Shown here piece after piece: positions 22,779 through 55,100 of a stretch of DNA of 64,000 bases. Source of the DNA: Owenia fusiformis (taxonomy: Eukaryota > Annelida > Polychaeta > Sabellida > Oweniidae); contig CAIIXF020000003.1 in assembly GCA_903813345.2 (NCBI GenBank), positions 31,414,651-31,478,650 of the forward strand. The letters are read 5' to 3'. Below the pieces are notes generated by a model. That model was not told the DNA's origin, made no database searches, and saw only the letters and a list, made by a program, of their open reading frames with translations. Made by a program: the position numbers and the translations under genes. Position 1 is the stretch's first letter. Each line of letters begins with the position of its first letter.

Positions 22779-22795
22779 CTCTAGGAACAGTGAAA

Positions 22796-22814
22796 AATCC
22801 CACCGCTGCCACCA
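22796..22814 (-). other. Primer-binding site for tRNA-Leu
   Basis: The plus strand reads AATCCCACCGCTGCCACCA, one base from the 5' LTR. This matches the 3' end of eukaryotic tRNA-Leu ending CCGCTGCCA plus the added CCA (from memory of tRNA sequences). The reverse complement is therefore the element's primer-binding site and fixes the minus orientation. Confidence 0.85.
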
Positions 22815-22815
22815 A

Positions 22816-24792
22816 TGTCGCGCGCCAGACTCCCGCCGAGTACCCGTACTCCCTCGGAGAAGGTCTGGTGGCGATGATAAGGGATTCGGAGGTGTTTATC
22901 ACGGGCGCCGAGCTGGTTTGGTGCTTCAGCTGTCACTGAGCTAGGAGATGGAAAACACAATGTAAAAAACAATCAATTACGGGATTTTAACAATCTATTC
23001 AACACTATAATTACTATAACAATCAATTTCAAAATGTCCTCAAATGCCTTTATGGCCAGTAATACAATAATGTCTCTATATAACAAAAACTCTGGCTCTG
23101 AGTTGTCTGTCTCTATGCTACTCTGCCATACTCTGCTCTTTGCTCTGCTTGTCTGCTCTGCTCTCTCTGATATACTCGGCTCTGCTCTCTGCTATGCTCT
23201 GCTCTCTGCAATACTCTGCTTGTCTACTCTGCTCTGCTCTGCTTGAAAAGAGCTCTCCCTCTTGAGCTATCTCGTCTTTGGGAAGGAGCCCTGGCTCTGG
23301 AAGTAACCTCTGCTTCGGGAGTCGCCTTGTCACGGGAGTAACCACCCTTAAACTCTCCTCAAAAGAGTGCTTTCACTCTTTGAGCTACACTGTCTCTTGG
23401 AAGGGGTTCAGGCTCCGAGAGTAACCTCTGCTCTTGGAGTCACCACTTTTCAGGATATACCTCTCTACAACCTCTGCTCAATTCACTCTTGAGCTACACT
23501 GTCTCTCGGAAGGGGTCCAGGCTCCGGGAGTATCCTCTGCTCTTGGAGTCGTCACTTCTCAGGAGAAACCTCTGCTCTCCAACGAGATCCACACACTGGG
23601 AGTACCTCAGCCCCGGGAATCGCCTCGTCTCAGGAGTAACCTCTACTCTTGAACAAGATCCACACACTGCTAGTACCTCAGCCCCGGGAATCGCCTCGTC
23701 TCAGGAGTAACCTCTACTCAAAGAGTGCTCTCACTCAATGAGCTACACTGTCTCCAAAGAGTAACTTCTACTCAAAAAGTGCTCTCACTCAATGAGCTAC
23801 ACTGTCTCCAAAGAGTAACCTCTGCTCTCGGAGTAACCTCTTCGCAGGAGCAACCTCACTACAACCTCTGTAGAGAATAACAACTCTAGAATGTCGATCA
23901 AAGGATGAGATTAGACAGAGCTGTTATCTCTCGCCTTGGAGCACCTCAGTTCCGGTAATGTAACCTTGGCTCCGATGAGAGTAAACCTTCCTCAACATAC
24001 AACCCTGGGTGAGAGTCAGATCGCCTCGACAAAGTAGGAGCATTTATAGCTTGGAGGGGTAATGACTAGGAGCCACCAATACTCAGAGCAGAATGACTCA
24101 CGAATATCGATCAAAGAAATGAGATTAGACAGAGCCAAATCTACTCAGAGAATCTGGAGCTCAAAACTTCTCAAAATGACGTCACTTCCTTCAAAATCAA
24201 AGATGGCCGACCGCCGGGAATTGTGGGAACAAGAAAGCAAGATGGCGGACAGCTAATTACCCATTTATGCCAACCTCAATCAAGAAAATGGTTAACTCAC
24301 CAAAACACTGGCTGTTGTCTTGTATTTTCTTCAATAGTCGCACCAAATACAATCTGCATCTAACGATTACTGCAACTAATCCAATATATCCAAAATAATG
24401 CTCCAATAAGTCCACAGATTAAATAAAACACGCTTGCACATAAATAAATCCAAACTGACGAGGTGTTGTATCTTCAAGATCTTGGTTTACTCTGATTCAC
24501 GTGGTTAATTACAAACAATAAAATACAGACACCTCAAGTTGCATCATGGGAAAACTACAACTTAAGTTGGAGGGAAATTCAAATAAAAGAATCTGATTGG
24601 CTGATCACCGGTTGCTGGGTACTTAATTATTCTAATTTATTCCACTACAGTCTGCTGATCAGTAAACATCCCAGTGCCTACGTGACATTCTGCATGTACA
24701 CATTTGAGCAATTAAACTCTCTGAAAGAGTCGACTGACTCCACATATAAAAGTTCAAAATAAAACAAAAATGAAACTCACAATTTTGTCACA
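22816..24792 (-). repeat. 5' LTR (1,977 bp)
   Basis: The plus-strand sequence from TGTCGCGCGCC to GTCACA matches the other LTR in length and apparently in sequence. It carries a CTCTGCTCTG-rich block and repeated GAGTAACCTCT phrases. Open frames in it on either strand are repeat artefacts duplicated exactly in the other LTR. Confidence 0.92.
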
Positions 24793-32757: not shown

Positions 32758-33149
32758 ACCCTACTATCACACCAAACTAGTTCTCACTACGTTCTCGAAA
32801 ACGGGCTTCAACTGTGTACGAACGGACTGGACCTACTAAGAACCGTTTGGGATCTATTTAGAAACGTCATCGAACGTTCTCGGACGGGTAGGTCCTCTAG
32901 AACCTAGACAATGCTCAAAATGTTCTCGTGGTCGTCACGTTCTGCAATTAGAACGAGTGACAACGTACAAACCACGACCTGGACGTACTACGAACGGAAC
33001 CGTCGTACTTCAATCCTACTAGGGACGTTTTAACAACGAGTTGAACTGTCTGAGGACGTGTTGAGAACGAGGTAGAACTAATTGCAAACGGGTTTAAACT
33101 GATTAAGAACGTATTTAACACTGCTTATGAACGAGTTAGCAAAAATATA
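32758..33149. mobile_element. CTATCACACC-family MITE, right end missing
   Basis: It begins CCCTACTATCACACCAAACT, the family terminus, and continues with the usual ACGAACGG-rich interior. No closing terminal repeat is present before the next copy starts at about 33150. Confidence 0.65.
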
Positions 33150-33566
33150 GCTATCACACCAAACAAGTTGCCACTGTGTTCTTCAAAACTGGTTTTAAAC
33201 TGTGTGCGAACGGAATGAACATAGCTGCAACTTTCTAAGGTCTATTTACGAACTTTATGATCGTTCTCAGACGGGAATGTGATTTTAGAACTTTGAATCG
33301 ATTCAAAATTCGATGGCGACCATACCGTTCTGTAATCAGGTCATGTTGACCTTCTAGACTAAGGGACGCGTTCTACTACATTGCACACCGACGTGGTGCG
33401 ACCTGAACGAACTGCGACGAACGAGATGGACGTATTGAAGACTGTTTAAGAACGAAGAAGCTAATTATTTCAGACATATTTCCCGACCAAAGCCAGATTG
33501 AGCCCGTTTTACGACGTTTTCGTAGGACTGGCAAGAACGGGTAAGAACTAGTTTGATGTGATAGTG
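33150..33566. mobile_element. CTATCACACC-family MITE, complete copy
   Basis: Terminal inverted repeats CTATCACACCAAAC (left) and GTTTGATGTGATAG (right) bound about 415 bp of non-coding DNA. Its central palindrome TTTGAATCGATTCAAA and flanks match the truncated copy at 24996-25376. Confidence 0.75.
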
Positions 33567-33635
33567 GGGTTAGGGAACTTCATCATAGTATGTCCAGGTT
33601 GTATGTACTGAATGAGCAATAAAACGCTAACGTAT

Positions 33636-33721
33636 TAAAACGGACCCGTCCTGTTATAGAAGGTGTTACTATAATTAAATGGTAGCGTTAAAATACCGAA
33701 CGTGACCTCTGGTTCGTTACA
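33636..33721 (-). repeat. 3' LTR of the miniature element (86 bp)
   Basis: Same sequence as 35036-35121 apart from a G-to-A change at the second base of the plus-strand end. It is directly followed by the CCCCCCTTTT complement of the purine tract. Confidence 0.88.
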
Positions 33722-34039
33722 TCAACCCCCCTTTTGAAAACCTGACCTACCACGGTCAGATGCCACTTTAACTTCACAAAGTTAGAAATGACAAAAAATG
33801 GAATGGAGACCCATAATGGCCGTTACATAAAAATAAAAATGTCCAGCAGAAGTCTGGACTCACAAATAGTACCATACATAAAAAGGTTCATACAATATAA
33901 ATACAGGTATATAAAAATGTTGTTAAAGCTTGGCTGTAAAACTGCAAAAATGAAAATATAAAATGTCTCTGTATCACTGTCTCAGATATTGGTTGAAGTT
34001 TAACAAATGTCACTAGTTGATTACACATCACATATAAGT

Positions 34040-34798
34040 CTATCTGAATGGCTTCCAAGCCGCTGCTTGGACCTCTTCTCTTGTGGGAGGGGTGAGTTGT
34101 GACTCTTGGAGATTCAGGTCAAATGTCGGACTTGACCCTATCTCCAAGGTGAGTCTCTTCTCTGCTACGTCCGAGTATTTATCGTCCTTGATGGGTGAAA
34201 TCCCAAACTCTTTTTGGAGTCTGGTTTCTAGCGACAACCTCTTTCTGGGGATAATGTATTTTGATCTTTTGATGTTCTGCGCCACCGTTAGAATCGCTTT
34301 CCTCTTCTTAGGTGGTTTTGGTGGTGGTGGAAATGGCTCCTCGTGAGGGGGTGTAACCTCGCCCGGCATGGCTGGTTCCGGCTCAGGGGACGGTGAGCGG
34401 GGACGCTCTGCTGGAGATTGATCTCCTTTAGATACGATCTTGAGACCCCAATCATCCAGTAGTCCTTGTAGAGAAGCTATCACATTTTCTCTACAGGCGG
34501 TCCCTATTGCAGTTTCAAGGGCCTGTAACTCCCCGGGTGCCATGGACTGGATGGCTTGAGTTATGATGGGGTGACACAGGGACGGTGTTGTCGCGCGTGA
34601 CGCAACCAATCCCTCCTCGGAAGTCACTGTTGCCGCGGGTGGTGCTGGCTCCTTCGGGGGACGTGGGATGCAGTCTTCGAGACGCAGGGATGGCATTGTC
34701 GCGTGTGACGCAACCAATCCCTCCTCTGATGTCGCTGTTGCCGCGGGTGGCGCTGGCTTCTTCAGGGGTCTCGCAAGGACAGTCTGGGACGCAGTCAT
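34040..34798 (-). CDS. Second ORF of the miniature LTR element, Pro-rich, unrecognised
   Basis: The frame is 252 aa with an internal duplication near the N-terminus: the phrase PPAATATSEEGLVAS and a variant recur about 33 residues apart. A helical segment (GELQALETAIGTACRENVIA), a Pro-rich stretch (PPPPKPPKKRK) and a basic region follow. It may be gag-like by position but has no zinc knuckle or known capsid motif. Its ATG overlaps the stop of the preceding frame as ATGA. Confidence 0.55.
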   Translation of the reverse strand: MTASQTVLARPLKKPAPPAATATSEEGLVASHATMPSLRLEDCIPRPPKEPAPPAATVTSEEGLVASRATTPSLCHPIITQAIQSMAPGELQALETAIGTACRENVIASLQGLLDDWGLKIVSKGDQSPAERPRSPSPEPEPAMPGEVTPPHEEPFPPPPKPPKKRKAILTVAQNIKRSKYIIPRKRLSLETRLQKEFGISPIKDDKYSDVAEKRLTLEIGSSPTFDLNLQESQLTPPTREEVQAAAWKPFR

Positions 34799-34974
34799 AG
34801 ATTGGTGGGGGAGGGGGGTGTTCCTAGGTCGACGTCGTACTTCGGCGTGTTCAACGTAGGAGACATCATGGCCGGGGATAACGGGATGTCTACAATCTGC
34901 TTCCAGAAATCTGCTGCCGTCTCGTCATCCTTGGTGGGTTCTATTCCAACGATGTAGTTCATTTCCTGTGTGGA
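34795..34974 (-). CDS. First ORF of the miniature LTR element, short
   Basis: Starting from the first Met beyond the primer site (MNYIVGIEPTKDDE), the frame encodes about 59 residues and ends in PTNL with a TGA that overlaps the next ATG. The frame is open upstream through the LTR, but that part is not likely coding. No family is recognised. Confidence 0.4.
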   Translation of the reverse strand, partial: STQEMNYIVGIEPTKDDETAADFWKQIVDIPLSPAMMSPTLNTPKYDVDLGTPPSPTNL

Positions 34975-35015
34975 TAACACTTTTGTATACTGTAACGAAC
35001 CAGAGGTCACGTTGG

Positions 35016-35034
35016 TATCCCACCGCTGCCACCA
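35016..35034 (-). other. tRNA-Leu primer-binding site of the miniature element
   Basis: The plus strand reads TATCCCACCGCTGCCACCA, one base from the LTR. It differs from the site in the large LTR element (22796-22814) only at the first base. Shared primer use suggests dependence on the same or a related helper (inference). Confidence 0.8.
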
Positions 35035-35035
35035 C

Positions 35036-35121
35036 TGAAACGGACCCGTCCTGTTATAGAAGGTGTTACTATAATTAAATGGTAGCGTTAAAATACCGAA
35101 CGTGACCTCTGGTTCGTTACA
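35036..35121 (-). repeat. 5' LTR of the miniature element (86 bp)
   Basis: The plus-strand sequence starts TGAAACGGACCCGTCC and ends GGTTCGTTACA. It matches 33636-33721 at all but one position. Confidence 0.88.
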
Positions 35122-35146
35122 GTATAATCTATATTCTCTAATATAC

Positions 35147-35383
35147 CCTACTTTCACACCAAACTAGTTCTCACTACGTTCTCAACGGGATTAAACTGTG
35201 TACGAACGGATTGGACGTACTTAGAACCGTTTGGGGTCTATACAAACTTCATGAATGTACTCGAACGGGTAAGTCCTCCATGCTAAAAATATGTTCTGAA
35301 CGAACTGCGAATGCGATGGACGTTTTACGACTTTTTGGTAGGGTTCGAAATAACGGCCGAGATCTAGTTTGGTGTGATAGGGA
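35147..35383. mobile_element. CTATCACACC-family MITE, short complete copy
   Basis: The ends are CCCTACTTTCACACCAAACT on the left and the inverted AGTTTGGTGTGATAGGG on the right, about 235 bp in all. It begins about 25 bases from the miniature LTR element. The internal phrase GTACGAACGGATTGG is shared with the other copies. Confidence 0.8.
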
Positions 35384-35489
35384 GTGAAATGTTAACGTTC
35401 ATACCATATATGACTAATACATTTAACGTGTATGTATCAAGGCACGAGCAATTTTCAGTAAAAACTTCACAATTTTGAGCCGTAACATT

Positions 35490-36170
35490 TTTTAGAATTG
35501 TCTTTTCGTGACGAGGGGATATAGAGGAGCCCATCCGTTCGAGTTTCCAGGTGATACCTCAAATACCAGTTGACGGACTTCATTTAATAGGTTTATGCCT
35601 TATGGGTGTTCGACCTCTGATCGAGAAGGAATTTCAACATGTATGCTCAATCCAAAATGACCGCCATTTTTTTTTAAAAATTTAATATTTATAACTCGAA
35701 TATTAGTTGACGGATTTTGTTCAAATTTAATATGCTGATGCCTAGAGACAAGGAGCTTTGTTCAAGAAGAAATTTTCAGGATAGATACTGAACTTCAAAA
35801 TGGCTGCCATTTTTCGGAAAAACGTAATCTTAGATAACTCAAATTTCAGCGGCCGGATTTGGTGCCATTTGTCGTAAAGTGTAATCATTGATAACACAAA
35901 TACCAGTGGATGGATTTGGTTCAAAGTTTGTATACTTATCCCTGGAAACAAAAGAGCTCTGCTTGAGAAGAAATTTTCAGAAGACAGCTGAATTAAAAAA
36001 GCCGCCATTTTCGCGACAACGTTATATTGACAGCTCAAATACCAGTTGACGGATTTGATTAAAATTTTCTATGCTGATATTTAGGGACAAAGGAGCTCTA
36101 TTCAAGAGGGAATTTTCAAGATGGCCCTATCTATCAAAACATATTCTGTTCGGCGGGATTTGTTACTTTT
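35490..36170. repeat. Diverged tandem repeat, units of roughly 150-180 bp
   Basis: A phrase of the form CAAATACCAGTTGACGGATT recurs near 35555, 35700, 35840, 35900 and 36035. Each is followed by variants of TATGCTGATGCCTAG.GACA and AAGAAATTTTCA. The copies are diverged and partly nested, indicating an old expanded array. No gene is present. Confidence 0.65.
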
Positions 36171-36339
36171 TGGAATTGCTGTTTTCTAGATATTAAATAC
36201 ATTTAACTCATTTTTACAGTGTAATATCTACATCTATGTCTTTAAGCATCGATTTCGGGTTGCACTACTTAAACTCCTATCTAATAGGTCTTATGATTGA
36301 TTTGTAATTATAAATTGCACATTCCCCTGCGATATGTAT

Positions 36340-39066
36340 CAGGCCCGTAAGACACTTTTCTCGAAGGGGGTGCGGTTTTTAATAAAGAGAAAATAAAATT
36401 GTCATTTTTTCCGCGTAAATAAAATCGCGTAAGTCAGAGGGGGGGGGGGGGGGGGGGGGGGGGTTGGGGGGTCAGTTACTCTCTATATTAAGGTCACTCA
36501 GCCTATTTTGTAGTATTCTATTGTTTTCATATTGTTTTTAGTATGAGCAATTTGGAGAAGCATTGGAATAGGGAGGGTGTGCTAGAAGGCAATAGAATCA
36601 ATTTAAAGTGTCTCACATATTCGATCAAAATTTGCCATGCAAACATGTTAGTCTACTTTACTGGCCCCCCTTGCTGTAACAAGGAACCCAAAACACATTA
36701 AAACGTAAACATAAACCAATTAGTCACTTCACTATGAAAGTGAGGGGTGTACGCTGTGTGCATGGACTAACACAATACCAGTGGTCATTTACTGTGTCAA
36801 CTTAGTAACCCTTGCATATCGTGCTCACTCAAGCATTGAATAATGTTTTTATGATCTAAATGTTTGTGGTTTATAAAAAAAAGTGATATGTTTTAGTTAG
36901 AAATACATTAATTAATATATTCATTCAAACAGCACTAGAATGCTGGAAGAAAGAGCAATGGTGACAAAATGCAGACAGAATTTTCCGTAAGGGTTTCAAA
37001 CATTTCTGAACACAATCATACATGTACTTCATGTCTATACTGTTATTTTTAGTGCTATATTTATAGAAATAATTTCACGTATTAAAATCATATTTTCCAG
37101 CAATGACTTCTAATTCGGAACCACACCCATATCATATTTTCTTCAATAACTCCAAACATGTGTAAACATTGACCATGTGCATATAAATTCAGATTTCACG
37201 AGCTCTTTCCTATTCGAGTACCTCATACACCCCTGCATGGATTTGAGTTGGATTCGCCTTTTATACGTGAGCCGACACACTCGCAAACGCTGATTGGATA
37301 AAGATTGCGAGAATCTTTAAAGAAATTCTGATTTTTTTCTTCTTTGAGGAGCTAGTGGGCAGCACAGGAAAATTTTACTAATTCAAGATGCTGTCTGGTT
37401 AATTATGAGCACTTTTAATATGTTTGAGTAAATGAATGCTTTAGTTTTTGGGATGCGGTGTCAGCATTATTTATGATTTCATTATGTCACTTGGTGATTT
37501 CTGGGCACTTTTAAAGTGTAATTAAAATAACAAATGCAACTTCCAAACATTCCCAATTGTTTTTGGTGGGGGGATGCAAGGAGCCCCTCCACCTAGAAAA
37601 TTTTACACTTTTGAGATGCTATTTGGTGCTTTCTGAGTGCTTTCAAAGTGTATGAGTCATAAAAGGATAAAAGGGTGAGGTGGGGTGGGGATGCCAGAGG
37701 GGGAGCAAGGGGTTTTCCCTCAGAAACATTGACCATTTCAATGTGCTATTTGATGATGTCTGGGCACTTTAAAAGTGACTCTGAGATAATACATGAAATT
37801 CATATTTTTCATATTCTTCATATAATTCATATATTTGGTGCTTTCTGAGCACTTTTAAAGTGTACGAGTCAATAAAAATGAACAACAATCACACTTTTTT
37901 CAAATTTTGGGGGTGTCAAGGGGGGGGGGGCAAAGGGGGGAGGGTAGGGTTGGGAACTTTTGTCAATTGTTTTGTGGGGGATGTGAGGGGTGGCCTACTT
38001 CTTTAGAAAGTTTTACAATTTTAAGATGCTATTTTGTGCTTTCTGGGCACTTTTAAAGTGTATGAGTCAATAAAAAAGATTAAACCATATTTTTTTCTAT
38101 TTTCTTTTTTTTGGGGGGAGGGAGGGGGGGGGGGGGTGAGGATGACAGAGGGGGAGCATGTGTTAGTCCCCCAGAAACGTTGACTATATCAAGGAGCTAT
38201 TTGATGATGTCTTGGCACTTTAAAAGTGTCTGAGGCAACACATAAAATAAATTCAGATCTTTTCAATTGTTTTGTGGGGGTGTGAGGGGTGGCCCACTCC
38301 CCCTAGAAAATTGTACAATTTAAAGATGTTATTTGGTGCTTTCTGGACACTTTCAAATTGTATGAGTCAATAAAAAAAAGAGAAAAAATCATATTATATA
38401 TTTTTTTGAGGGGGGTCCAAGGGGGGGGGGGTGCCCGAGGGGGAGCAAGTGTTAGTCCCCCAGAAACATTGACTATATCAAGGAGCTATTTGATGGTGTC
38501 TGGGCACTTTAAAAGTGTCTGAGACAATACATAAAATAAATTCAGAACTTTTCAATTGTTCCACTCCCCCTAGAAAATTTTACAATTTTAAGATGCTATT
38601 TGGTGCTTTCTGGACACTTTCAAAGTGTATGAGTCAATAAAAAAGATAAGAAAAAAATCATAATTTTTTTAAATTTTTTTTTGGGGGGGGGGTGTGTCTA
38701 AGCGGAGGGGGTGCCCGATTGGGAGGTGGGGTGAGGATGCCAGAGGGGGAGCAAGTGTTAGTCCCCCAGAAACATTGACTATATCAAGGAGCTATTTGAT
38801 GATGTCTGGGCACTTTAAAAGTGTCTTGAGACAATACATAAAATAAATTCAGAACTTTTCAATTGTTTTTGTGGGGGTGTGAGGTGTGGCCCACTCCCCC
38901 AAGAAAATTTAACGATTTCAAGATGCTATTTGGTGCTTTCTGGGCACTTTCAAAGTGTATGAGTCAATGGAAAAAAAGTAGAAAAAAAATCTTTTTCACC
39001 CTGGAGGGGGGGTGTCAGAGGGGGGTGCGGTCGCACCCATCGCACCCCCCCATCTGACGGCCATGC
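36340..39066. mobile_element. G-rich TIR element (copy 2), upstream of the sulfatase-like gene
   Basis: It has the same ends as the copy at 26898-28629 (CAGGCCCGTAAGA, and TCTGACGGCC on the right), flanked by TGTAT on both sides. The segment at about 36480-37500 is more complex and unlike copy 1. After it come at least five tandem units with the GATGCTATTTGGTGCTTTCT and GAGCTATTTGATGATGTCTG phrases separated by long G runs. It is about 1 kb longer than copy 1, through extra units and the complex segment. Confidence 0.8.
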
Positions 39067-39252
39067 TGTATGTGTATATGCTTTTTTATTTATTTATCCC
39101 TGACATTTAAATGCTTGAACATAAACATGATATCAATACACGAAAGGTGTATAAACAGCTTCAGAATGCTCGTGATACACTGAGGCCAATTAGTTCATTA
39201 TACTAGGAATATATGAGACACATGCTTGTGCATGTATCAATTGGTAATTAGT

Positions 39253-42200
39253 ATGAATCGAGAATGTGGCTTGAATTTGGGACTACTGATGGCGACGGCA
39301 TTTTTGTTAGGTAAGAAACAACCAAGAGGGGTTGACCCCTAGCATTAATTCGCGATCTTTTAGATCTTTTGACTGACTTGGACCGATTTGGATATAATAT
39401 TACTACAATGTGCACGTCCTACCGACTTACTTATTGGTCTGGAGATGGACATCTTTATTATATTACTCCCATTGTTCCATGCCAGTCAAACAAGAAGAAT
39501 ACTGGTAGTCTATCCTTGACGTTAAATCACTGTCTATATGTTCTATGCATTTCCTACTGTTTACGAAGACACTTGTTGTATAATTCTTTGAAAGAATTCC
39601 ATTTTCATCCAATTCACCTTAACTCCCATAGGTCCAATTGCTTTCTCTGGACTTTTAAGTGCCATAGATAGCACTAGTCCATGATTTTAGATCAATATGT
39701 AGAGGTTATTTAATGGGAAGGATGGAATATGAATTTTATTCCGAGGGAAGATATGGCATTAGCCGAGGAATTACTGTCTGAAAACTAGACCTGAAACTTA
39801 TTTATTTTATTTCTGTATTTTGTAACCCAGTGATGGTAACATAAAATACTACAATTTAATTTATCATATAACATTTTCAACTTTATTATCACGTTTTGAA
39901 ATAGATCGAAAAACGTAAAAATCGAGAGAATAGTTCTGATATGGGATTTTTGAATATCAATTCAATTCTATTCCCTGTTTATTTTAAAGGGAAAAGATGT
40001 TAATATTGAATTAATGCTATTGTAGGTTTGACAAAATGTCAAACATGTAAGAATACCATATGCAAGAGAGGAGATCTAGAAAGGCTAACTAATGAGATAT
40101 CTGGGAAAATTTCTAGCATGGAAAATGAATTTGGTAAAATTACCGCTGTCATATCTGAAATGAGGGACGAAGTAAGTGAACTCTCAGGTAAAATCTCCAT
40201 GATGCAATCAGAAATGACAAAGCAACACCTCCAGGAAAATAAATCGATGGTTGATAAATGTGCTTCAAACCAAAGCAAAGGGAAAGGTAAATATATTTTT
40301 AGAATTCTCGGTTTAATATTTTTAATACCTTGTATGTTTGGTTTGCTCCTTTTGGAAAGGAATGTAAATAAATAAAAATTGGATAATCACACTTTGAAAT
40401 GTCTGAGAGCCGCACTTTAGAATTACGTGAACGTATTGAATAGTGTTCCCGTGTATTGTAGTGACATACACTTGCTTATTTTACTGAATTTTTTTTGTGT
40501 TATACATATTTATTGGATTACATTAATAGCTATCAGCTAATACAAAATGTTTTCCAAAATATAAAATGTTTGTTGTTTGTTTTACTGAAATAACACATGC
40601 GTTTCATTGTAAAGTATAATATGTTTCATGTTTTTCAAAATTATTTAAAATTATAATTTAAAAAACGTGTCGACGATCAGAATACTGACTCTTTACCTTG
40701 TTTCTATAACATTGGAATGAAACACAAAGTACTAGTCTTCTAATTTTTAAACCATCTTTTTGTTTTCAGAGGATGCCTTGAAGCCACATATTGTCCTCAT
40801 AATTGCTGATGCACTCGGCTACAATGACATTGGCTTCAGGAATTCTAAATTTCTGACTCCTATTCTGGATGAACTTTCAAAGGAGGGCATTCGACTGGAT
40901 AATTATTACGTAGATGCAATGCCAACAGCATTTAGAGCCAGTCTAATGACGGGGCGATATCAGGTTAGTGTACAGTTGTCTATTCATTACTGTGTGTCGA
41001 GGTAATACCACGGAGAGAGCTAAATATCTCTTCGACCAATGGTTATAAAAAAGTAGAATTAAATAGTACAGATGAATGTGAAAGTTTGATATTAGTATTC
41101 TGGATACATCAATGAATACATCAACAATTTCTATTTATTGCAATTGTACAGCCAAACACTGGCGCGATGTCAATCATCCCTGTGGCGACGGAACACTGTA
41201 TCCCCCATAGGGACCTCAACCTTCCCGAAAGATTACAAAATGCCGGATACTCAACGTACTTCATTGGAAAATGGCATATGGGGTATTCAAAGCCATCGTG
41301 TTTGCCAAGAAGTCGAGGATTTGATTATTTCTATGGTAATGTTTTATATAGCTCGGGATCAAGTTGTGTACGTGCGTATATTCAAGATCTTTTTAATTTA
41401 GACGTTCAATCTTGCCATTGCATCATTGCAGTTGTGATAACCTGTATTGTGTTTGTTTGGTATCTCTCATTTCTAGCCTTGTCAACTTTGGTTTGGTACA
41501 TTCAGGGAGCTATACCGGAGAATGGAAAGATCACTTTAACCACATTCTGGAAGGGTGCGTACGAAAAGGGAATGCAACTACGATTGGGAAAGCATACTGC
41601 CTTTATAGAGGTAGAAAGATTAGGGATTGTGCGGGCAGATGCTGGTCGAAAGATTTTCACTACAGTGGTAATTATCTAAGATTAAATAAAATATAAAATA
41701 TGTAAAATGTCGTATAGAATGTTAATTAATATTTTCTAATTTGGTCGAAATCTGTCTCTACCACACATAGTGTCAAGAATATCACTTCATTTGCACATTA
41801 CCATAATTTCTGATCCGTGACAACAACAAGTTTTAAAGGAATCGATCTGAATGAAAACGAGGCACCAGTGCTCGACTCATATGGTGAATTCGGAGCAGAC
41901 TTATTGACAAAAAAGGCAACTGAGACGATCGAAAACCACAATCATGAGCGTGTAGGTTTATTTCCATGAATTGTTCGAACACAGATTAATTAAATGTAGT
42001 GCGGGGTATTTTAGATCAAGTTTTTTGCTGCATCTATGGTTCTTCCCGAGAAGTCCATGGAAATCAGCTCTGTGCAAAATTTGATTTTTTCATTATGTGC
42101 AAGGTTTCCGAAATAAAACAAAATCATTATTGTTAATCCTCCATCTTTGTTTTTACATTATATGTTAGTTACCCTAATATGTTTTTTAGCGCATGTTTAT

Positions 42201-45200
42201 GACAATTGCCTACGACACAAAGTCTCCGGATGCCACAGGGGAATATCGCAATAAAATAACACAAATACCCGATGGTAAACTAGGAGTTGAAAATATTCCA
42301 AGGAAAAATGTGGCAGGTATGAACCGACTTTCATTCGTGTTTTTCATTACTATATACGCTTTATTTGATGAAGTTTCCTTCCTTGAAACTGATGCAAAAA
42401 CATCTTGTTGGACCCTTTGTTACTTTGAGACCTCTGGATTTTGAGACAGGTGTAAAAGGGTAGGTGGTCCTATCAACTTTTGGTCCTACTCTCTATTGAT
42501 TTATATGGTGACCTAATTACAAATATTTTCATTATTATTTATACACAGTCAGGGCCAGTAAGGTCCGTAAGAAAAGGGAACCATAATTTCTTTTAACCGG
42601 GCCCCGTGTCACACACATCACAGCATTTTAGACTGGTATGCTCCATAAGTAATTAGTATCCACGACTATTTGTATTAGAATATTGGTAGGGTATACTTTT
42701 TTACTTATTCTTCAAGATATATTGTTTTGACTTCGGTACGACTAAAATATCCCATTACCAGCATTTCTGGATTGTAATAATGGCTCTTGAATAATGAGGA
42801 AGGGGGAGGGGGGTGGCACTTTTTCGTTATAGCTTAAAGATCTATCTATCTTAGGGATATTGTGACTATGTTTACTTATAACCGACTTCTCTCTTAATAT
42901 TTTCCATGACTTATAAGTTTTGATACTTTTTGATATTTCAAAAATTTACATCTATTGTAGCAATGGTTAATGCGATTGATACAGGAGTAGGCAAGATCAT
43001 CCAAAAGCTCAAGGAGACAGGAATGTGGGAAGACACTGTCCTCTTATTTACAAATGGTAGATATATTTCGCACATAAGTATAAGAATTCGTTTCCTTATG
43101 TTACATCACGCTGTTTAGCTTCGATAAGCAGTTATACAGGGTGTCGTTCGATAAGCAGTTATACAGGGTGTCGTTCGATAAGCAGTTATACAGGGTGTCG
43201 AAAAACTTGATCGTAAGAAAGTTGGATAATTCGGTCAATTTTGCTTTTGAAATTTAAGAATTATTTAGTTCATTCATTGAGAATTTTGTTGTGAAAGTTT
43301 CACGATAATCTGTCTATTGTGTCAAAAACTACAGTACCTTACAAAACATGCTCAAAGTGGCCATCTATGCACAAATGAATCCTGCGAACAAAGTTGTTAA
43401 TGACCCTGACCTATACACATCAATGTGGATGTACATATTGGGGTAGTCATTGCCCTCTTAAGATTGTTAGGGACCTGCCAGTATACACAGTGGCTTTGAG
43501 AAATCCCCAAAGATAAAAATCTGAGAGATTTAGATCTGGGGATAAAGCTGCCCAGAGTTCTGCAACTGATGAACTGACCACCAAAGCATTGCCTATCTCC
43601 TTAGGTGCCCTTTCTGGTGCTTAGTAACCTCTAAAACTTAGTGAGAACTTGAATATACCGGTCCGTGGTCATGGGAAAGCATGTCCCCATGTCATCTTCG
43701 AACCAAAAAGGACTGATGATTCAATGTTTGCTCATTGCCACCCAGGCAGTGCATTGTTCAGAATGCAATGGGCACTGTAACACTTTATCAGGAGGATATA
43801 AGCCCAAGTAGCAATTGTTCTTGGAATAAACTTATCCATTCAAAAAGAAATGTGTGTAGGAGAATCATCAATAACTTTGTTCGCCGGATTGAATCGAGCA
43901 TAGAGAGGAGAGGTGCACATTTGTGGCATGTTTTGTAAGGAACTGTAGTTTTTGTCTCAATAAGCAGATTATTATCAAACGTTCACAAAATTCACATTGA
44001 ATGAACTAAATAATTCTGACATTTTAAGGCAAAATATGCAAAACTGACCGAGTTATTTAACTTTATTACGGTCCTGTTTTTTGGACACCCTGTATGTACC
44101 TAAACATCACCGGAACGCTTTAAAACCAGTGACAAGAGATCCATGTCCTTAGTTGTTCTTGAAGAAATCGAAATAAAATGAGGTTTAGGCCCGTAACCAG
44201 CTTTTGTCTCGAGGTGGGAGTTATTTATTGCTTCGGGCTTTATCCAATTGAATATGTGTTCAATTGTATCAAACTAGAAAAGGGAGATTTTTGAAGGAAT
44301 AATTACACCCGCTCTCCCCTTAATTACGGGCCTTCATTCCGTTATATATTTAGATAGAGGAGGACATACAAAGAGTAACAACAACTGGCCATTACGTGGC
44401 TCGGCGTTTAATTTCTTCGAAGGTGGCATTCGGGGAATAGGAATTGTGGCTGGTCCCGTCACAAAGAAAGGTGATCTCGTATTTCAGTCGATTCTTATTT
44501 TACAAATAATCTCCAAAGCCTGGTTACTTATATATCTGCTTTAAATGACCCTTTTAGCCAATTGCAGATTATTGATGTAGATGTACTTGGGATTCATCTG
44601 TTTCGCTCTTTTTATTATTATCTAGCAAAGATGTATAATAATTCCAATTCACAATTATATCACGTGGCTGACTGGTATAAAACATTCCTGGATCTCGCAG
44701 GGGCAAATGTAGGCGACTCAGGGGCAGACTCACACGACATTTGGTCATCCATTAGGTAATATCGTTTTTGTACTTGGGTCGTTTCAATTGAACCCCTATC
44801 CACCTATCTAAATAAACATGATACTTTATAATATTCGTGTCTAAAGTAAAACAAATGAAAAATATGGGTTTGGCTGTATATTGGAAATTTAAAAATATTT
44901 AGCTTAGACACTACAAGCCCAAGAGATGAGATCCTACACAGTATGAATCCAGTTATGCCGAAACTTGGAGAACCTCTCTACAGAGATACATTTGACAGCT
45001 CTATACATAGTGTGTTAAGAATGGGCGATTATAAACTGTTCACTGGAAGTAAGTGTGTCTTTGCCATTTCGATTTAAACGGCAGATATAGTTGAATAAAG
45101 AGGATGTATATTTAGTATTTCTAATTGAGGAATGCAAATATAAAAACTGTTCTGTCAATGGATACTTAAAAGGTCAATCGTATCTGTTGAGATTTAAAAT

Positions 45201-47974
45201 GTGAACACCATCTTATATTTAATTCCTATTTGAATTTAGGGACTTTTTCGATTGGAGGATTCACCGGATGGATGGCTCCAGTAGAATATCCCGAACTTGA
45301 GACTATAGAGCCAGACCTCAATGATACAAGCAATGTCCATCTGTATAACATCAAGAGCGACCCACTTGAGAAGAATGATTTAAGTACTAAACTAATTTCA
45401 AAGGTACATCCTTGTACTGTATGGCATATACCAGTACATGTCACCTCCAAGAACTGTTATACACTTCAGAGAGAGCGTGGTGTAGCTACTGTAGTGGGAG
45501 GGGGTGCTGGTTATGGACCCGCTAATGGGGCAGTGGCGTAAGGCGAGATGTTAAATTTCTAGCATGATCAAGTTATGAGCTGAGTGACCAAATAGTAAAA
45601 TAAAACAATTAAAACCACGAGAAAATGGCTGATTTCATACATTTACAATAAGCAAAACTGATGAAGAATGTGTAAATTCAACAATTTCATGCATCATCAC
45701 ATGGTATAGTTTATCGCATCAATGAATGTGTTCGACCACTTAGTTTTTATGCAGATCGAATGAGAAATGTTTGTTGTTACTATTTTAATGTTTAATGAAT
45801 GATATTTGATCTATAGATGACATAATATGTTGAATAAAAACATACGTTTTCCGAATTACCTATCTTCGGCCATTTATAGGTAATTACGTATCGCAAACCC
45901 TGTAACTTAGGGAAAATACCGCTTAGTGCAATAACAAACTACGGAATATGTAAATGGGTTATTAGGGAGTTTCAGATTAGCGTAAATAACCCATTTACCT
46001 ATACCCCCTAGCAACACCCCGTCCCAACTACAGTAGCTACACCACACTCTCCTTGAAATATATAACAGTTCTTGGAGATGACATGTACTTGTATATGCCA
46101 TATAAGCCATCGCATGGTTTTCATTCTATAATTAGTATGTTAATTTTATCATAAATAGCATACGGTTTCGTAGCCTTTTACGTTAATCTTAAACTCATTT
46201 TGCAATACGTATCCGTAACATACATACGGATAGGTACACGTATATTTTTACGCTAATGTTAACCTCCCTATACCCTTTGCATTCGTTTGACTTCACTTCT
46301 TAAAAGAGAGCTTCGTCTTCAATCTTTCAAACTAAAATAAACCTGTGAACTCAATCAGTGTTCGTCGGCCAAATTTGACCGACGTTCTATATATGGTCAT
46401 TCCTTCTGACGTCATCGTTGAGTCCGGAATTGACCAATGACATGCGCATATTTAATTAGAACCCATTTGGCGTATGTTTCTTCAAGCTCGCTGATTGGAG
46501 GAAGAAAGGTTAGCGCGTAGAAAAGTGATTTATTACCCAAACTGTTACCGGTACCCGTCGTGGGGGCGGAGCTACTAAATTGTAATATGGTCTCTACTAG
46601 GCAGAGTGTAGTTTAACTAGACTCTGCACGCAGTGTAGTTTAACTAGATTCTGCACGCAGGGTAACCTCCATAATATGGACCAAGCGTACGTGTGAAATT
46701 CTAAGAAATACAACTATTTTGCCATGCTTTATTAATTTAAGTCATGGTCAAATTTACGATATTTGATATTTTTTGAAATCCATGAGATTCAGCTATTCTA
46801 CCACATCCTGCGCCATGTGTATTGATATCAACGATATAATATGTGTGCTATCGTGATGCCAACATAACTGTTTACCATGAATATGCGATATATTGCTTAT
46901 TATTTCTTAGAAACAGCTTTAATGGTGTTTTTTGACAAAAATCAAATTTTGCTATGGAGACTCGGACAACATAACCAGATATGCATCAAGTCCCTCGATA
47001 GTTTCTAACTGGTTAATAAAATATGTTTCCCACCATCTCTCAAAACTGGTTGTTTGATATGTAGTACTCATTAAAAAACACGTTTCATAATGTACATATG
47101 TTTTGTATCCTCCAACACATGCCCAACATATTCAATTTACTAAAAAATTGAGATTTTATATAACAATCATTTAAATACTAAATTGGATTAGTCTCCTTTC
47201 TAAAAATATTTTTTGAAATCATTTGTGTGCATTGATGAAATCTTAATGTTTGGAGGATACATAATATTGAACAGCAAACCCATCTTGTCTGATGTTTTCA
47301 TTGTCTGTCATTTAAGAGGTAACCCTTAAGGGCACTTTCTGGCGAAATCTTAAGAAATGATGCATCAGCAATATGTTAATTTAAACAGTGTGTTGGAGGA
47401 TACAAAATATTAGACAAATGGTATATGCATAGAAAACGTATTTCATTGCATGGGTAACACACGTCTAACATCGCCCTTTTAAGAGCTGATGTCAAACATA
47501 TTTTTTATGCAGTTTGGAAAATGTCAACGTAATCGATGCTCTGTGTTTGTTGTAATACGATTTTGTATCACCACAAACAAAACAAAACTTTGTTTTTTGA
47601 GAAAAAATCATCATTTAAGCTGTTTTTGAGAAATAATAAGCAATATTCTCAGTTAACATCGCATGATTATGTCAACCAGTTGTGATGATTTAGAATAGCA
47701 CTCATCAAATGTCACTGGTATCAACACACACGACGCAGGCTTTAGTAGAACAACTGATTTTGAAAATATCAATTATCGTCAATTTGCCCCCATGTTGATT
47801 AGTGGACCCACTTATTAATTTAAGGTGAAAGAGATGCTAGATAGGCTTGCTGAACTCCAGGAAGACACCAAGGCTGAACCTTATCCTTGTCCTGACCCTA
47901 GAGGGCGTCCTGTGTTGGTTAGAAAAGGGGCCACTCCTGACGAAGATGTTTACGCGTGGAAACCCTGGTTATGA
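39253..47974 (+). CDS. Secreted arylsulfatase-B-like pseudoenzyme with N-terminal coiled coil, complete, 13 exons
   Basis: Exons: 39253-39310, 40026-40286, 40770-40963, 41152-41335, 41506-41667, 41839-41951, 42190-42316, 42961-43056, 44360-44470, 44626-44755, 44903-45048, 45240-45403, 47825-47974. All are GT-AG and phase-consistent: 1,896 nt, 631 aa. A signal peptide is followed by Cys24/27/32, a coiled coil (about residues 36-95) and a sulfatase fold: PHIVLIIAD, TGRYQ, GKWHMG, NNWPLRG, EGGIRG, SDPLEKNDLS. The order and motifs match arylsulfatase B/I/J. The catalytic CxPxR is replaced by PTAFR (Pro at 158, Ala at 160), the metal-binding Asp-Asp is Asp-Ala (120-121), the His of the VHEP region is Ser/Lys, and the DNGG metal loop is shortened to TNGG. 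Only Lys211/His213 of GKWH remain. It cannot make formylglycine, so a binding or scaffold role is more likely than hydrolysis (inference). Confidence 0.88.
43110..44096. mobile_element. Degenerate Tc1/mariner-like element in intron 8 of the sulfatase-like gene
   Basis: Long inverted repeats (about 43187-43380 and 43900-44096) begin ATACAGGGTGTC and end GGACACCCTGTAT, next to TA. The arm phrases AGAATTATTTAGTTCATTCA and CTACAGT.CCTTACAAAACATG occur in both orientations. At the left end a 27-bp unit (CAGTTATACAGGGTGTCGTT...) is repeated three times. A plus-strand frame at 43735-43938 resembles a transposase C-terminus (NFVRRIESSIERRGAHLWH), but the rest is decayed. Confidence 0.72.
44188..44334. 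mobile_element. Short MITE, AGGCCCGTAA ends
   Basis: Perfect 10-bp inverted termini AGGCCCGTAA and TTACGGGCCT bound about 145 bp of non-coding DNA in intron 8. The ends resemble those of the G-rich TIR elements (CAGGCCCGTAAGA), suggesting a shared transposase source. Confidence 0.6.
45415..46110. repeat. Inverted duplication of about 100 bp in the last intron of the sulfatase-like gene
   Basis: The left copy (about 45419-45530) has TGGCATATACCAGTACATGT, CCAAGAACTGTTATA and GTGGTGTAGCTACTGTAGT. The right copy (about 45990-46106) is the same order in reverse complement with a few changes. The left copy starts about 15 bases after the splice donor at 45404. Frames on both strands here are artefacts. 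Confidence 0.8.
46604..46664. repeat. Two-copy 30-bp tandem repeat
   Basis: The phrase GTAGTTTAACTAGA.TCTGCA followed by CGCAG occurs twice in a row. It lies inside the last intron and contains the palindrome TAGTTTAACTA. Confidence 0.7.
46742..47803. mobile_element. Non-autonomous TIR element ending just before the final sulfatase-like exon
   Basis: Diverged inverted arms of about 200 bp are visible. TTGATATTTT.GAAATC, TTCTACCACATCCTGCG.C and GCTTATTATTTCT..GAAACAGCTT on the left correspond, inverted, to matching phrases on the right (about 47590-47800). The interior has no transposase. The right end lies about 20 bases from the acceptor of exon 13 (47825), so the element may contribute the branch-point region. 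Confidence 0.65.
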
Positions 47975-49193: not shown

Positions 49194-52100
49194 CTGAAAT
49201 CATACAAACACATACCTGTCAACTAAAAAATAATTAAAATCGGGAGAAATCGAAATATTTTGAAAGAGAATCGAAGTGAAAATCAGTATTTATTTTGGAA
49301 AATCGAGATTTAAAAAAACATCGGGAAGAAATCGGGATATTATAAAGGAAATCGGTAGAAAATCGGGATTACAAATACTAAACAATAATTTTAAAAAGTC
49401 TGGAGAAAATCAGGATAACTAAAAATAGTTAGAACAATCGGGAGAAAAATCGGAGTTTGAAATACTAAATCAATAAATCTAAAAAGTCGGGATAACTAAG
49501 TATAAATCGGGATATTATATAAGAAATCGGGAGGAAAATCAGGGTTACAAATGCTAAACAATATTTTTTAAAAGTCGGGAGAAAATCGGGATTTATCTGA
49601 AAAAATTGGGAGTAAATGTGGATGTCATAATATAAACCGGGAGAAAAATCAGAGTTAGAAATACTTAATAATCAATAAATCTAAAAAGTCGGGTGGAAAT
49701 CGGGATAACTAAAAATAAATCGAGAAAAAATTGGGATTGATTAGGATAATCGGGAGACAATCGGGAGTTTACAATAAAAATCGGGAAGAAATCAGCGTTT
49801 ACAAAAGAAAACCAGGAGAAAATCGGAACGGTGAAGAAGAATCGGAGTTTTCAATAAATTATCGAGAGAAAATCGAGATGGCATAACATAAATTGGAGTT
49901 TACATATGGATAATTTGATAAATACGTTTTCGAATTGCATTTGGGCCTTTTACTATCTTTGTTTATTAATATATACATGAGATATCATCTGCATTAAACC
50001 AAGTAGCACCCTCACAACTTGACGTGCAATTTAACCTAGCATTAATCATGGTTTTCCGTATCCATTTGGATCTCACAGCACATTACTTGCAATAGTTATA
50101 AATATCAGAAATAATTATGTAATCTACATCTCGTCCTCACATAATCAATTATCTTTCTGATGAAGCAAACCAGGGTAGACCCCAATAACATGATAGGAGC
50201 GTTTGTCCAGACACTAGCTAGTTTTCGCTTCTCAGAAAATTGTTATTAGGGGTAGACAGAAGTGTGACAGAAAAGCGGACCATTCCATCTCACCAAAAGG
50301 TGCTTATAACACTTAATAAAAATGACCAAAACGAGGCTGAGCACCAGTCATGGAGATTGAACACAAGAAATCTCATTATTTGCCAAACATTTGTCAACGG
50401 TTAGAGCATACATAATTCCATAAACAAGACAGAAATTTTTAACAATAATGAGGCTAGTTTATAAACAGAATGAGCAACCCGAACAAATACTAGAGTAAGT
50501 TTTCTATCCATGGGTAATACAGGTACATGTAAAATATTCAATTATTATATACTTACGCTTTCATTCTCCTCAGTGTTCGAATGCAGCGCCATTTATGCTG
50601 ACCAACCAATGTAAACGACGTATCCCTGCGACACGGAACTAGAAATATAACAGAAAGAAGCTTGGAAAGTATAGCAACATATTTCAGACAGTCATATGTT
50701 GGATTTTGTCTGTTTTCTGAGGATTAAAACAGATGCATATGTTAGTCAATGCATTACATAAAGGAAAAGAAATCATAGAGATGATAAAATAATTTGGACT
50801 TTGAGACAGGGAAGGTGCGAACAACCCACCCACATGTTTTGTTGGATGCAAAAAATATTGAAAAAGCAGGGATGAAAGGGATTGGAAATCAGGACAAAGT
50901 TTCAGAAAAAACATGTGTGTGGGTTGTTTGCACATTCCCTGTCTCAAAGTCAAAATGATTATATCATCTCTATGAGTACTTTTCCAGGAGGAAATGCATT
51001 GGCCTAACATATGCACCTGTTCAAATCCTCAAAAAATAGCCAAAATCCAATCTGACTGTCTGAAATCTGTTGCGATACTTTCCGTCCTCCCATATTATAT
51101 GAATAGGAATTATTTACAATTTATAAAAAATTATACAACAGAAATGAACCACTGTACGTTCGATACATTAATAACTGAGGTGTGTTTTAGATTTTAGCTC
51201 TGAAGATTTATGGTCAAGAGAAGAAAGAATACTAACCACATATCATTTTCCATTTGTCATCCGGGTATAGTTCGTGTCCATACGGACACTTTGTCCCTCG
51301 TGTAATAACGAATTTCGATCGATCCAAAGCATAATATGTTTCAACATCAGTCCGTTTAGTCAAAATCTGCTCATTTTCGGATAATTCCTCAAATCTTTTC
51401 AAAATGCTATCTAACAAATTCGACCAGGTTTTGAAAACAGCTTGCATCTCATTGTAATCTTCTCCGTTCATTATTTTGTATTTCCCAATACGCAAGTGAA
51501 GGTTGATAGTCCCACCGTCAGTATTACCATTGCTTGTAAGACTATGAAGGACTACCAAAGAAGGCTCTTCTGTCTCACGTAATATCTTCTTCATTGCCCA
51601 TATTATGTATGGCTTTTTTCTTTTATGGTACACCAAAGGGCGCTTGTACTCCGTGTGAGTGCTGTTATAGCCTTCATTCACTTCAATATAGCCGAGTTTC
51701 AGATTTATGCTTGGGAATGCTACACTAGCTGTCATTACTCGTAGTCTTGCTTGGTCAGACCACACCCCACCATGCCTGTTGTTTGCTACGCATAAATACT
51801 TGCCCGCGTCAGACATTTGAGGAGATGATATCACTAATTGTTTCCCAGTCGAATTTAATTTTTCACTCTTTCCACTTCCAAACACCCGTCTCCATGTGAT
51901 AGTTGGTGTTGGTATACCGTTAGCAACACACTGAAATTCTGCACCTCCAGGATTTCCGACTGTAGTCACCGTATATTTAGGATGTTCCACAATGGTAGGT
52001 GACTCGATTAAACGAAGATAAAAGTTTGCTCTGACCGTAGCAATGTGATTAGATGCTACGCATGTATACTCTCCTTCAGAATCCATGCTTGCAATTGTAT

Positions 52101-55100
52101 CGATAGTGTCACCATTTGATCCATTATAGCGTTCCCCATCACGTTCCCAATATATGTCAGGTTTAGGGTCTCCAGTTGTCTTACACACAATGACAACCTT
52201 TTTGTCAGGTTTAACTTTAACTTCAGTTGGTATTGTAACTTTAGGAACTGTAGCGCAGAATACTTTTGTCTCCTTTGCGATTTGAAGAACTTCCAAAATC
52301 CTAGCCGACAATTCCATTGCATTATTGTTTGAAATATTTTCATTATCAACGATTTCTGAAAATAATTCAGCCAGTTCAAGGGTCAAGTATTTCATTTCTT
52401 CTGCACCAGGTGCATCTGTAATGTTATACATGTCAAATAGTTCAGAGAAACTAATAAGCATACAGTCTTTAAATCCACTGCATCTATCTTCTTCCCAAAA
52501 GGTGGCAGTTGCATTGTCCATTCCATTTTGCCACAGCAACATTAGTGGAAACGCTTTGGCGTTTTGTAACTGTTTCTTACTTTCAATGTTTGCCTGGTTA
52601 ATCGTGCTACCCAGTTGGTTCACGGACTCATCTTGATCAATATTTGCGTCCTTTATTGTTGCAATCAATTGTTCAGGAGTTATACCATAGTTTATAAAGG
52701 CATCGGTAACATTGATACCAAGCTTTCCCAAACTATCAATTGTCAATTCATCCATGTTGATCCCAATAGAACCTATACCTGAAGAGTTCTGATCATTTTT
52801 GTTTAAATCATCTTTTGAATTATCAATTCCTGCTATTGTCTCATTTGTGATTTCAAAAAGAGACTGAGCAGCTCCAGAGAGAAACTCCTCAATTCTTTTG
52901 AATTTTTCACATTTTCGTTTGAAATCTTTGATTCTAATGGTTGTTTCATCTTCATCTGCAGTTTTATTCAGTGTTTCATATTCTTCTGTTGCATCAATCG
53001 TACTGTTCACAATGTTTGCCAAAATATCACTTTCTATACCATCAGAAATAAGTTTATATAGATCATCAACACCGCGAAACTTTCGATACAATCTATGGAC
53101 AATATGAGTCTGCTTGTATTCTATTTCCCGCTTCCTACGTCCGAAGGAAATTAAACTAGTCAGGTAATTGATGACAGATTTCGCTGCATTCCATAGTGAT
53201 TCTAATAAGTTGCGGAAATTGATAGTTATCTTGATGTTCCTCCACCCAAGTCTAAACGCATTAATTTCACAAAATACATCAATGACGAACAAATCTTTAG
53301 TTGATAGTTCAACTGAAAATCCACATTTCTTAATATCTATCAGACTCTGCAGACCAAATTGGATTATCCAGCCAGCGAGTTTTAGACCTATTCTGACCTA
53401 TTTTGACTGCCTCGAGAGCCAGCTCAACCCCTCTTAGAATGCCTTTAGCTCCTTCCAGCCCAACCTGAGCAAGAGTGAGAATTCCTTTGGCAACCTCTAA
53501 TACAACCCTGGCTTTGTCGACAATGATCTGGGCCGCACTAAGAGCTGCCTTTGCAAGGTCAAATGGAAGCATAAGGGCCCTCACACCAAGTTTGGCCAAC
53601 TCGAGGGTCCCATAAGCAATTTTCCTAACCACCCAGCATGCGGCATTTTTAGCGAGACAAAGTACATTTGGAATTTTGATCATACACCTTGTCCAATCGC
53701 AACATGGGTATGGGACCTTAATGAACCACACTTTCTTCCAACAAATCTTGCATTTGATCCCAGGGATGCACAGAGGCTTACAATCTGTAATCTTACAAAG
53801 GTTGTCAACTTTCTTTTGAGCTGCATCTAATTTGTTTAACGCGGTCTTCAATGGTCCCTTTGCTCTTTCAACAGCTTCCTTTGCCCTTTCTAGTCCTTCA
53901 ACGCCTCTATCGAATACAACATTAGCTTTGTCTACATCACTCTTTTTTGCCTCGAGCCTTTAAAATAATGTATAATATGATGTAATATAGTATAATAAAT
54001 TACAATATTATATGATGTACAAGCGAATTATCAGTTTATCAGATTTACACCATGTACATGTACATGTTAAATGTACCAACTAAGTATATTAATAAAATCT
54101 CCATCTGGTTTGATTGGATAGCAATTTACATATTAAAGGTCTCATTTGTTGAAATTCTGGAAAAGTTTTTCTATATAAAGCATGATCATGAAATTGCTAC
54201 TTACCATTGCTGAGCTCTGGTGAGACCACCTCTTGCTGCTGCAAGTCCATTCTGTGCAGCAGTTAAACGATCATTTGCTGCGTTTGCAATGTTTTGAATA
54301 GCATGCCGCAGTGCATCACCAAAGCTTCCTTCAAACGAATCATCTCCACCAGGTAGAAACTGAACAGTTACTTTGTACAGTAAATCTTGAAAAGGAGTGA
54401 ATCCTGGGACAGAGGCCTCTGCGTCGATTCTTGCTCGGAATATGTTAAACACATTTGCCTCAAAACCAAAGCCAAGCTTAAACAGAGATATGAAGACATC
54501 AACTCGTGCTCTTAGACCGAGGAAATTAGCATTGGCGATAAGGTGCACAATTGTTTTTTCTTTTGCTTCCTTGCTGAATGCTATCTCTAATCCATATCCA
54601 TTTGCTACTTCCAAGAAATATCCAAGTTCCTTGTGAATGGTAAAGACACCCATTGCCCGCAGTGCATTCTTCCCTTTCAGTAAATCATACATATAATTAA
54701 ACCGGCTACATTGTCCTAGTGATCCAACACTGTACACAAATTCTACATCGAGAGAGGGAAACTGGAGCCCAAATATTTCAATGTCCACATATGCTTTTAA
54801 ACCATAACCGGAATAGTTTTCTGTCACATCCATGATTTGACCAGTTATTTTCTCAATCAGTGCTTTGGTATTGTTCTTTATTCTTTCAACTTCACTATCG
54901 ATAAATTGTGTAACATTGGATTTTAGAGCATTGGCATCGAATTCAATTTCATCTTTAAATGTTTCCCATATGGCCTTTAAGTCGTCGATTGCATCTTTCA
55001 CTGGTTTGATTATATCTGGAATTGATGGAAATTTGCCATTCTTTATACCATTAATTGCGTTCTTAATCACATCAATTAGTTCGGAAACTGCATCCCTGAA

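Follow-up and report, generated by a model that had tools for sequence, protein, structure and literature searches.

The window, by which we mean the whole 64,000-nucleotide stretch of Owenia fusiformis DNA analysed here, carries on its forward strand a gene related to arylsulfatase B (ARSB). The sulfatase part consists of 11 GT-AG exons (exons 3-13; 40770-47974, + strand) that join in phase into 527 codons and a stop. The initial annotation had placed 13 exons in this interval; 11 lie there, and the count of 13 is reached when two predicted upstream exons (39253-39310 and 40026-40286) are added, giving a full model at 39253-47974 (+ strand) of 633 codons with no stop. Junctions were selected with a simple consensus splice score among in-frame pairs within 30 bases; all 12 are GT-AG and each is the best in-frame option, with a tie at the junction of exons 11 and 12. 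The features of the model are:

39253-39310, + strand: exon 1, predicted; carries the start codon and a signal-peptide-like segment, MNRECGLNLGLLMATAFLL, based on an ATG frame, a hydrophobic stretch, the donor TTAG/GTAAGA and an in-phase join to exon 2
40026-40286, + strand: exon 2, predicted; encodes CxxC-x4-C and then a coiled coil of ~7 heptads, based on the heptads, a helix prediction and an in-phase GT-AG join to exon 3
40770-40963, + strand: exon 3; start of the sulfatase domain, with D53 kept, D54A (40811-40813), C91P (40922-40924), R95 kept and TGRYQ
41152-41335, + strand: exon 4; GKWH (K145 and H147 kept) and CLPRSRGFD
41506-41667, + strand: exon 5; holds a Cys-rich stretch outside the 1fsu alignment
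41839-41951, + strand: exon 6
42190-42316, + strand: exon 7; Ser at the H242 position (42223-42225), the proline two residues on being a gap
42961-43056, + strand: exon 8; ends with LLFTN plus the first base of codon D300
44354-44470, + strand: exon 9; DRGG (D300 kept, N301R at 44356-44358), NNWPLRG, K318A (44404-44406) and EGGIRG
44626-44755, + strand: exon 10
44903-45048, + strand: exon 11; SPRDEILHSMNP and SVLRMGDYKLFTG, aligning to the C-terminal part of 1fsu
45240-45403, + strand: exon 12; alternative start at 45258 with equal splice score
47825-47974, + strand: exon 13; C-terminal CPDPRGRP...WKPWL and stop

At the stop rate of the introns, the probability of finding no stop in 634 codons is ~7e-19. 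The GC-content of the introns is 0.340, relative to 0.472, 0.405, and 0.410 at the codon positions.

Several other elements were observed in the window. Direct repeats lying 5846 bases apart at 16970-23827 show no difference over the pieces compared (300, 85, 115, and 69 bases) and flank a gag-like frame (19560-22895, - strand); this element looks like a young LTR retroelement. Long frames at 14124-17126 (- strand) and 29790-31597 (+ strand) resemble LINE reverse transcriptases by eye. Within the gene, intron 8 contains 78-base inverted repeats that are 79% complementary (43289-43988) and a fragment that resembles a transposase by eye (43447-43620, - strand); a 27-base unit in three exact copies adjoins these repeats (43120-43200). 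Intron 12 holds 79-base inverted repeats that are 90% complementary (45420-46102), probably a small transposon. Downstream, long frames occupy 51232-58476 on the - strand. The frame at 51232-53397 has two immunoglobulin domains, no Pfam match above the cut-off was found for three other - strand frames, and the region is perhaps one large extracellular protein gene. Finally, several exons at 62056-63781 (- strand) resemble calcium-binding EGF domains by eye.

The best solved relative of the 527-aa protein is human ARSB (PDB 1fsu; E 1.4e-78, the next best being 1.4e-37). The match spans residues 5-140 and 183-507, and in an alignment of four sequences the protein is 37% identical to the aligned 1fsu stretches. 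Among the best 60 of 78 matches to solved sulfatases, bit scores were 268 for 1fsu, 133 for 6b0k, 114 for 7stt, and 74-83 for ARSA, 4fdi, and steryl-sulfatase. The sulfatase domain PF00884 was recovered with an E-value of 3.5e-39 (135.3 bits relative to a cut-off of 25), while the C-terminal sulfatase domain PF14707 remained sub-threshold (18.4 relative to 30.9) and all NCBIfam matches fell far under their cut-offs. By this similarity ranking, which is not a tree and has ARSI and ARSJ outside the comparison, the protein is of the ARSB lineage and is nearest to ARSB among the solved sulfatases in the best 60 of 78 matches. These results agree with the earlier description of an ARSB-like frame that runs open, in phase, and without a stop across its exons.

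To compare individual residues, we built an alignment of the protein and 82 relatives, comprising 79 bacterial loci, two chains from bacterial PDB entries, and human 1fsu. The collections scanned for relatives were bacterial/archaeal genomes and viral contigs. Eighty bacterial loci were fetched and one (L078) was left out as over-long. They were retrieved by two peptide patterns derived from an alignment that contained the window protein, so that agreement is biased at residues 12-20 and 259-267; the first pattern is present in 60 of the 79 loci and the second in 21. Scans of viral and bacterial contigs with a single protein matched a pattern in 3 and 15 stretches, none of them confirmed as a relative, and a scan of viral contigs with the alignment gave five loci, which are outside the comparison set.

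We take the catalytic and metal positions of ARSB to be D53, D54, C91, R95, K145, H147, H242, D300, N301, and K318 (human numbering). Five of these ten are kept in the window protein (D53, R95, K145, H147, and D300) and five are lost: D54A, C91P, H242S, N301R, and K318A. The formylglycine motif CxPxR reads PTAFR, the two metal pairs have changed from Asp-Asp to Asp-Ala and from Asp-Asn to Asp-Arg, and in the sulfate-contact and catalytic set R95, K145, and H147 are retained with H242S and K318A changed. Relative to formylglycine-dependent sulfatases (SulfAtlas S1), the protein departs in the [CS]xPxR motif that gives formylglycine, the metal ligands, and the catalytic or sulfate-contact residues. 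For comparison, 78 of the 82 relatives have lost none of the ten positions when Cys, Ser, or the Ala of 1fsu is counted as kept at C91 (Ser occurs in two relatives and Ala in PDB 1fsu). Under this rule C91 is lost in none of the 82, and the four that are not intact include two incomplete loci with gaps (L060 and L067). D54 is Asp and N301 is Asn in all 81 relatives with a letter there, although the first pattern admitted just Asp or Ala at D54. Two bacterial loci (L025 and L027) differ at K145, H147, H242, and K318 and keep C91 and the metal ligands; they may form a separate hydrolase subgroup or be misaligned.

The alignment bears out most of what had been read from the letters, namely PTAFR in place of CxPxR, the first metal pair as Asp-Ala, the missing catalytic His of the VHEP stretch (P244 is lost too), and the retention of GKWH, NNWPLRG, EGGxRG, and TGRYQ. 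In contrast, the metal loop reported as shortened to TNGG results from a mis-splice: the exon 8-9 splice 43056/44354 has the top score among seven in-frame options and gives TNDRGG, in which D300 is kept and N301 is Arg. K318A is a fifth active-site loss that was absent from the initial annotation. The minimum number of nucleotide changes between the present codons and a codon for the ancestral residue is 2, 3, 2, 2, and 2 for D54A, C91P, H242S, N301R, and K318A, respectively. The five losses thus need at least 11 changes and do not reflect one sequencing error; a single base error hiding CxPxR is likewise ruled out, the C91 codon being three nucleotide changes away. An alternative exon or a paralogue carrying CxPxR was looked for within the window and was not found. 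Indeed, the CxPxR pattern has one match in the 64-kb window (57626, - strand), which has a stop inside and offers no usable second exon, and tblastn of the protein recovered just the gene's own exons plus three matches at chance level (E 2.7-8.1), so no active paralogue adjoins the gene.

Formylglycine derives from the Cys of CxPxR, and the metal pairs serve sulfate hydrolysis. The modifying enzyme is described in PMC7279497 as recognising CxPxR. C91P takes away the residue converted to formylglycine, and with D54A and N301R each metal pair loses one ligand, so the protein is not expected to hydrolyse its substrate through the known mechanism. Loss of the known sulfatase chemistry is well supported by these substitutions. 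The protein might instead be an enzyme with changed chemistry, for example with the Thr of PTAFR as nucleophile, and we consider this very improbable. In other members of the alkaline phosphatase superfamily a Thr acts as nucleophile, and D53, R95, K145, H147, and D300 are kept. Against this reading, the Thr lies one residue off the nucleophile position with Arg95 in register, each metal pair is short of one ligand (D54A and N301R), and Thr would not give formylglycine according to PMC5066984.

The same substitutions could mark a decaying pseudogene of an ARSB duplicate that is free of stops by luck. Half of the catalytic positions are gone, and 6 of 39 other invariant columns have changed as well: G (residue 25), P93, T (200), P (219), P244, and G (367). 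Inverted repeats resembling transposon debris lie in introns 8 and 12. We examined whether the losses are concentrated at the active site. Among columns conserved at ≥95%, 33 of 39 are kept outside the ten positions versus 5 of 10 inside (P = 0.033; Fisher test). The corresponding counts were 40/53 versus 5/10 at ≥90% (P = 0.13), 40/48 versus 5/10 at this threshold when the human residue must agree (P = 0.036), and 22/24 versus 3/5 at ≥98% (P = 0.13). Once the columns of the search patterns were removed, they became 29/35 versus 4/8 at 95% (P = 0.07), 36/49 versus 4/8 at 90% (P = 0.22), 36/44 versus 4/8 with the human residue agreeing (P = 0.07), and 19/21 versus 2/3 at 98% (P = 0.34). Over six variants of the column choice, P was 0.13, 0.036, 0.033, 0.033, 0.13, and 0.13 with all columns and 0.22, 0.07, 0.07, 0.07, 0.34, and 0.34 without the pattern columns. 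Clustering of the losses at the active site is not significant in most variants, which counts in favour of a pseudogene. The concentration is suggestive only, because P varies with the choice of columns and rises from 0.033 to 0.07 without those biased by the search.

The open frame argues in the other direction, with 633 codons lacking any stop or frameshift, 12 usable introns, and codon positions whose GC-content differs from that of the introns. Neutral drift sufficient to explain the losses predicts ~6 stops at the rate of 6/39 (6.05 expected, none seen; probability of none 0.0024) and ~25 stops at the active-site rate of 5/10 (none seen), in a rough model that ignores indels and takes all columns as intact in the ancestor. 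If drift is assumed at 10% or 5% of the codons, 3.8 or 1.9 stops are expected, respectively, with probabilities of none of 0.022 and 0.16. Such low expectations imply that the lack of stops is not decisive, but the open frame carries more weight than the clustering of losses as a sign of constraint. Overall, we regard a decaying pseudogene as improbable. The central claim of the initial annotation, a catalytic core lost in a gene that was kept open, holds: 5 of 10 positions have changed through at least 11 nucleotide changes, there are no stops in 633 codons, and 33 of 39 other conserved columns (29 of 35 without the biased ones) are kept.

Because the first sulfatase exon has a phase-1 acceptor, another exon must precede it. 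We scanned 33001-40769 for exons that open with an ATG, have a hydrophobic start and end in a phase-1 donor. This yielded three candidates at two places (34254 and 39232/39253), of which the gene-adjoining one is 39253-39310; a further in-frame ATG lies upstream at 39232. The hydrophobic start MNRECGLNLGLLMATAFLL was found by this simple scan. The protein may be secreted, based on this signal-peptide-like exon upstream of the interval first annotated. Exon 2 begins with CQTC-x4-C and continues with a heptad repeat. In its best 49 residues, positions a and d carry a large hydrophobic residue (I, L, M, V, or F) in 13 of 14 cases versus 3 of 35 elsewhere, a pattern reached by none of 3000 shuffles. 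A structure prediction covering exon 2 alone (AlphaFold2 without alignment) gave one helix at residues 2-84 with a mean pLDDT of 93.1, and a search against the PDB gave four matches with E-values of 0.043-0.073. Together, the repeat and the predicted helix make a strong case that exon 2 would form a heptad coiled coil. The donor of exon 2 (AAAG/GTAAAT) joins exon 3 through G/AG, coding for Glu, with a score of 25.6. The union of exons 1 and 2 with the sulfatase exons in transcripts is predicted from these junctions.

Alternatively, the locus could be split in two: one gene for a signal-coil-membrane protein whose frame stops at 40375, and another, with an unseen first exon, for a pseudo-sulfatase from 40770 onwards. 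Read past its donor, the exon 2 frame encodes KYIFRILGLIFLIPCMFGLLLLERNVNK before it reaches a stop (40287-40375), and AATAAA occurs at 40367 and 40371. This read-through includes a 19-residue stretch with a Kyte-Doolittle mean of 2.46, and only 8 of the 1076 frame ends of the window reach 2.3, this one included. These features would suit two genes, but another intron read-through is just as hydrophobic (2.69), the scan revealed no ATG-led exon with a signal-like start in 40286-40769, and the donor of exon 2 is in phase with exon 3 with the highest score of the 12 junctions. We therefore view two genes as unlikely. It is possible that 40287-40375 encodes the end of a membrane-anchored coil-only isoform made by intronic polyadenylation, or that it is a chance T-rich read-through.

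Taken together, the most likely explanation in our view is a single 13-exon gene encoding a pseudo-sulfatase of the ARSB lineage that would act by binding. The predicted protein has a signal peptide, followed by a Cys cluster, a coiled coil, and then a full-length sulfatase domain, which would be unable to cleave sulfate esters through the known sulfatase chemistry. It would be secreted by means of the signal peptide of exon 1, and its coiled coil, perhaps locked by the CxxC cluster, would assemble it into oligomers in which several dead heads could jointly bind a ligand, most likely a sulfated glycan or a protein partner. Such binding would draw on the remnant of the sulfate pocket (Arg95, Lys145, and His147), and the Arg that has replaced the metal ligand N301 could supply the charge of the missing cation. 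A binding role, perhaps for sulfated glycans, had been proposed initially, and we infer the same, since the coil and the kept Arg95, Lys145, and His147 fit it. K318 and H242, which we take to face the substrate sulfate, are lost, and sulfate binding is therefore expected to be weakened. The more specific proposal of a multivalent sulfated-glycan lectin, in which the coil bundles dead ARSB heads, an Arg at a metal-ligand position takes over from calcium, and the pocket holds sulfate uncut, appears doubtful.

The pseudoenzyme might also be a dominant-negative or regulatory partner that contacts active sulfatases, the modifying enzyme, or receptors through its coil or its sulfatase surface rather than binding a glycan. 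This is a special case of a pseudoenzyme and the two roles are not exclusive. A coiled coil suits assembly, and PMC12406646 reports that heparanase 2 both binds glycan and contacts its active paralogue; in contrast, no active paralogue adjoins the gene in the window by tblastn. We hold a partner of this kind to be possible, though less likely than not.

Among known systems, human ARSB (1fsu) shares with the pseudo-sulfatase the sulfatase domain, GKWH, NNWPLRG, EGGxRG, and the C-terminal part (37% identity). It differs in that the window protein has C91, D54, H242, N301, and K318 replaced and a predicted N-terminal coiled coil outside the match. Animal sulfatases without the Cys have already been reported in insects: as described in PMC6823443, coleopteran Sulf2 has Ser (Gly in Tribolium) and lepidopteran SulfB has Gly in place of the catalytic Cys. 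The same text describes three flea beetle paralogues with His changed to Asn in the second signature, whose activity was barely detectable and was not raised by restoring the His. Sulf2 and SulfB are thus likewise animal arylsulfatase homologues kept without the formylglycine Cys, whereas the window protein differs from them, as they are described, by Pro in place of Cys, four further losses, and the coil exon. In PMC5066984, Ala occurs at the Pro of CxPxR in 369 sequences, which indicates that the Pro-to-Ala change alone would not exclude a sulfatase; nine bacterial sequences are given there as possibly inactive, and 30 proteins containing Thr were not accepted as functional sulfatases. Animals can also have large sulfatase families, from which such paralogues could naturally arise: 29 and 36 arylsulfatase transcripts are listed for two salivary gland samples of a triton snail (PMC5519703). 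Heparanase 2 is also a dead glycan-degrading enzyme kept in animals, and PMC12406646 describes it as a pseudoenzyme that binds heparan sulfate with high affinity; it belongs to another enzyme family and provides an analogy and functional precedent only.

Dead members of catalytic families often acquire binding or regulatory roles, and little is written on sulfatases in this respect in the open-access literature searched: the term 'pseudosulfatase' was not found there, and work on heparanase was all that was found on pseudoenzymes and sulfatases together. Collectins are coiled-coil multimeric lectins with a signal, a Cys cluster, a coil, and a C-terminal head. The window protein has this layout in common, with a sulfatase domain as the head instead, and the likeness noted here is one of layout. 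Five active-site losses in an intact 13-exon frame with a predicted coil thus raise a testable question: could a sulfatase fold without its Cys serve as a reader of sulfated glycans?
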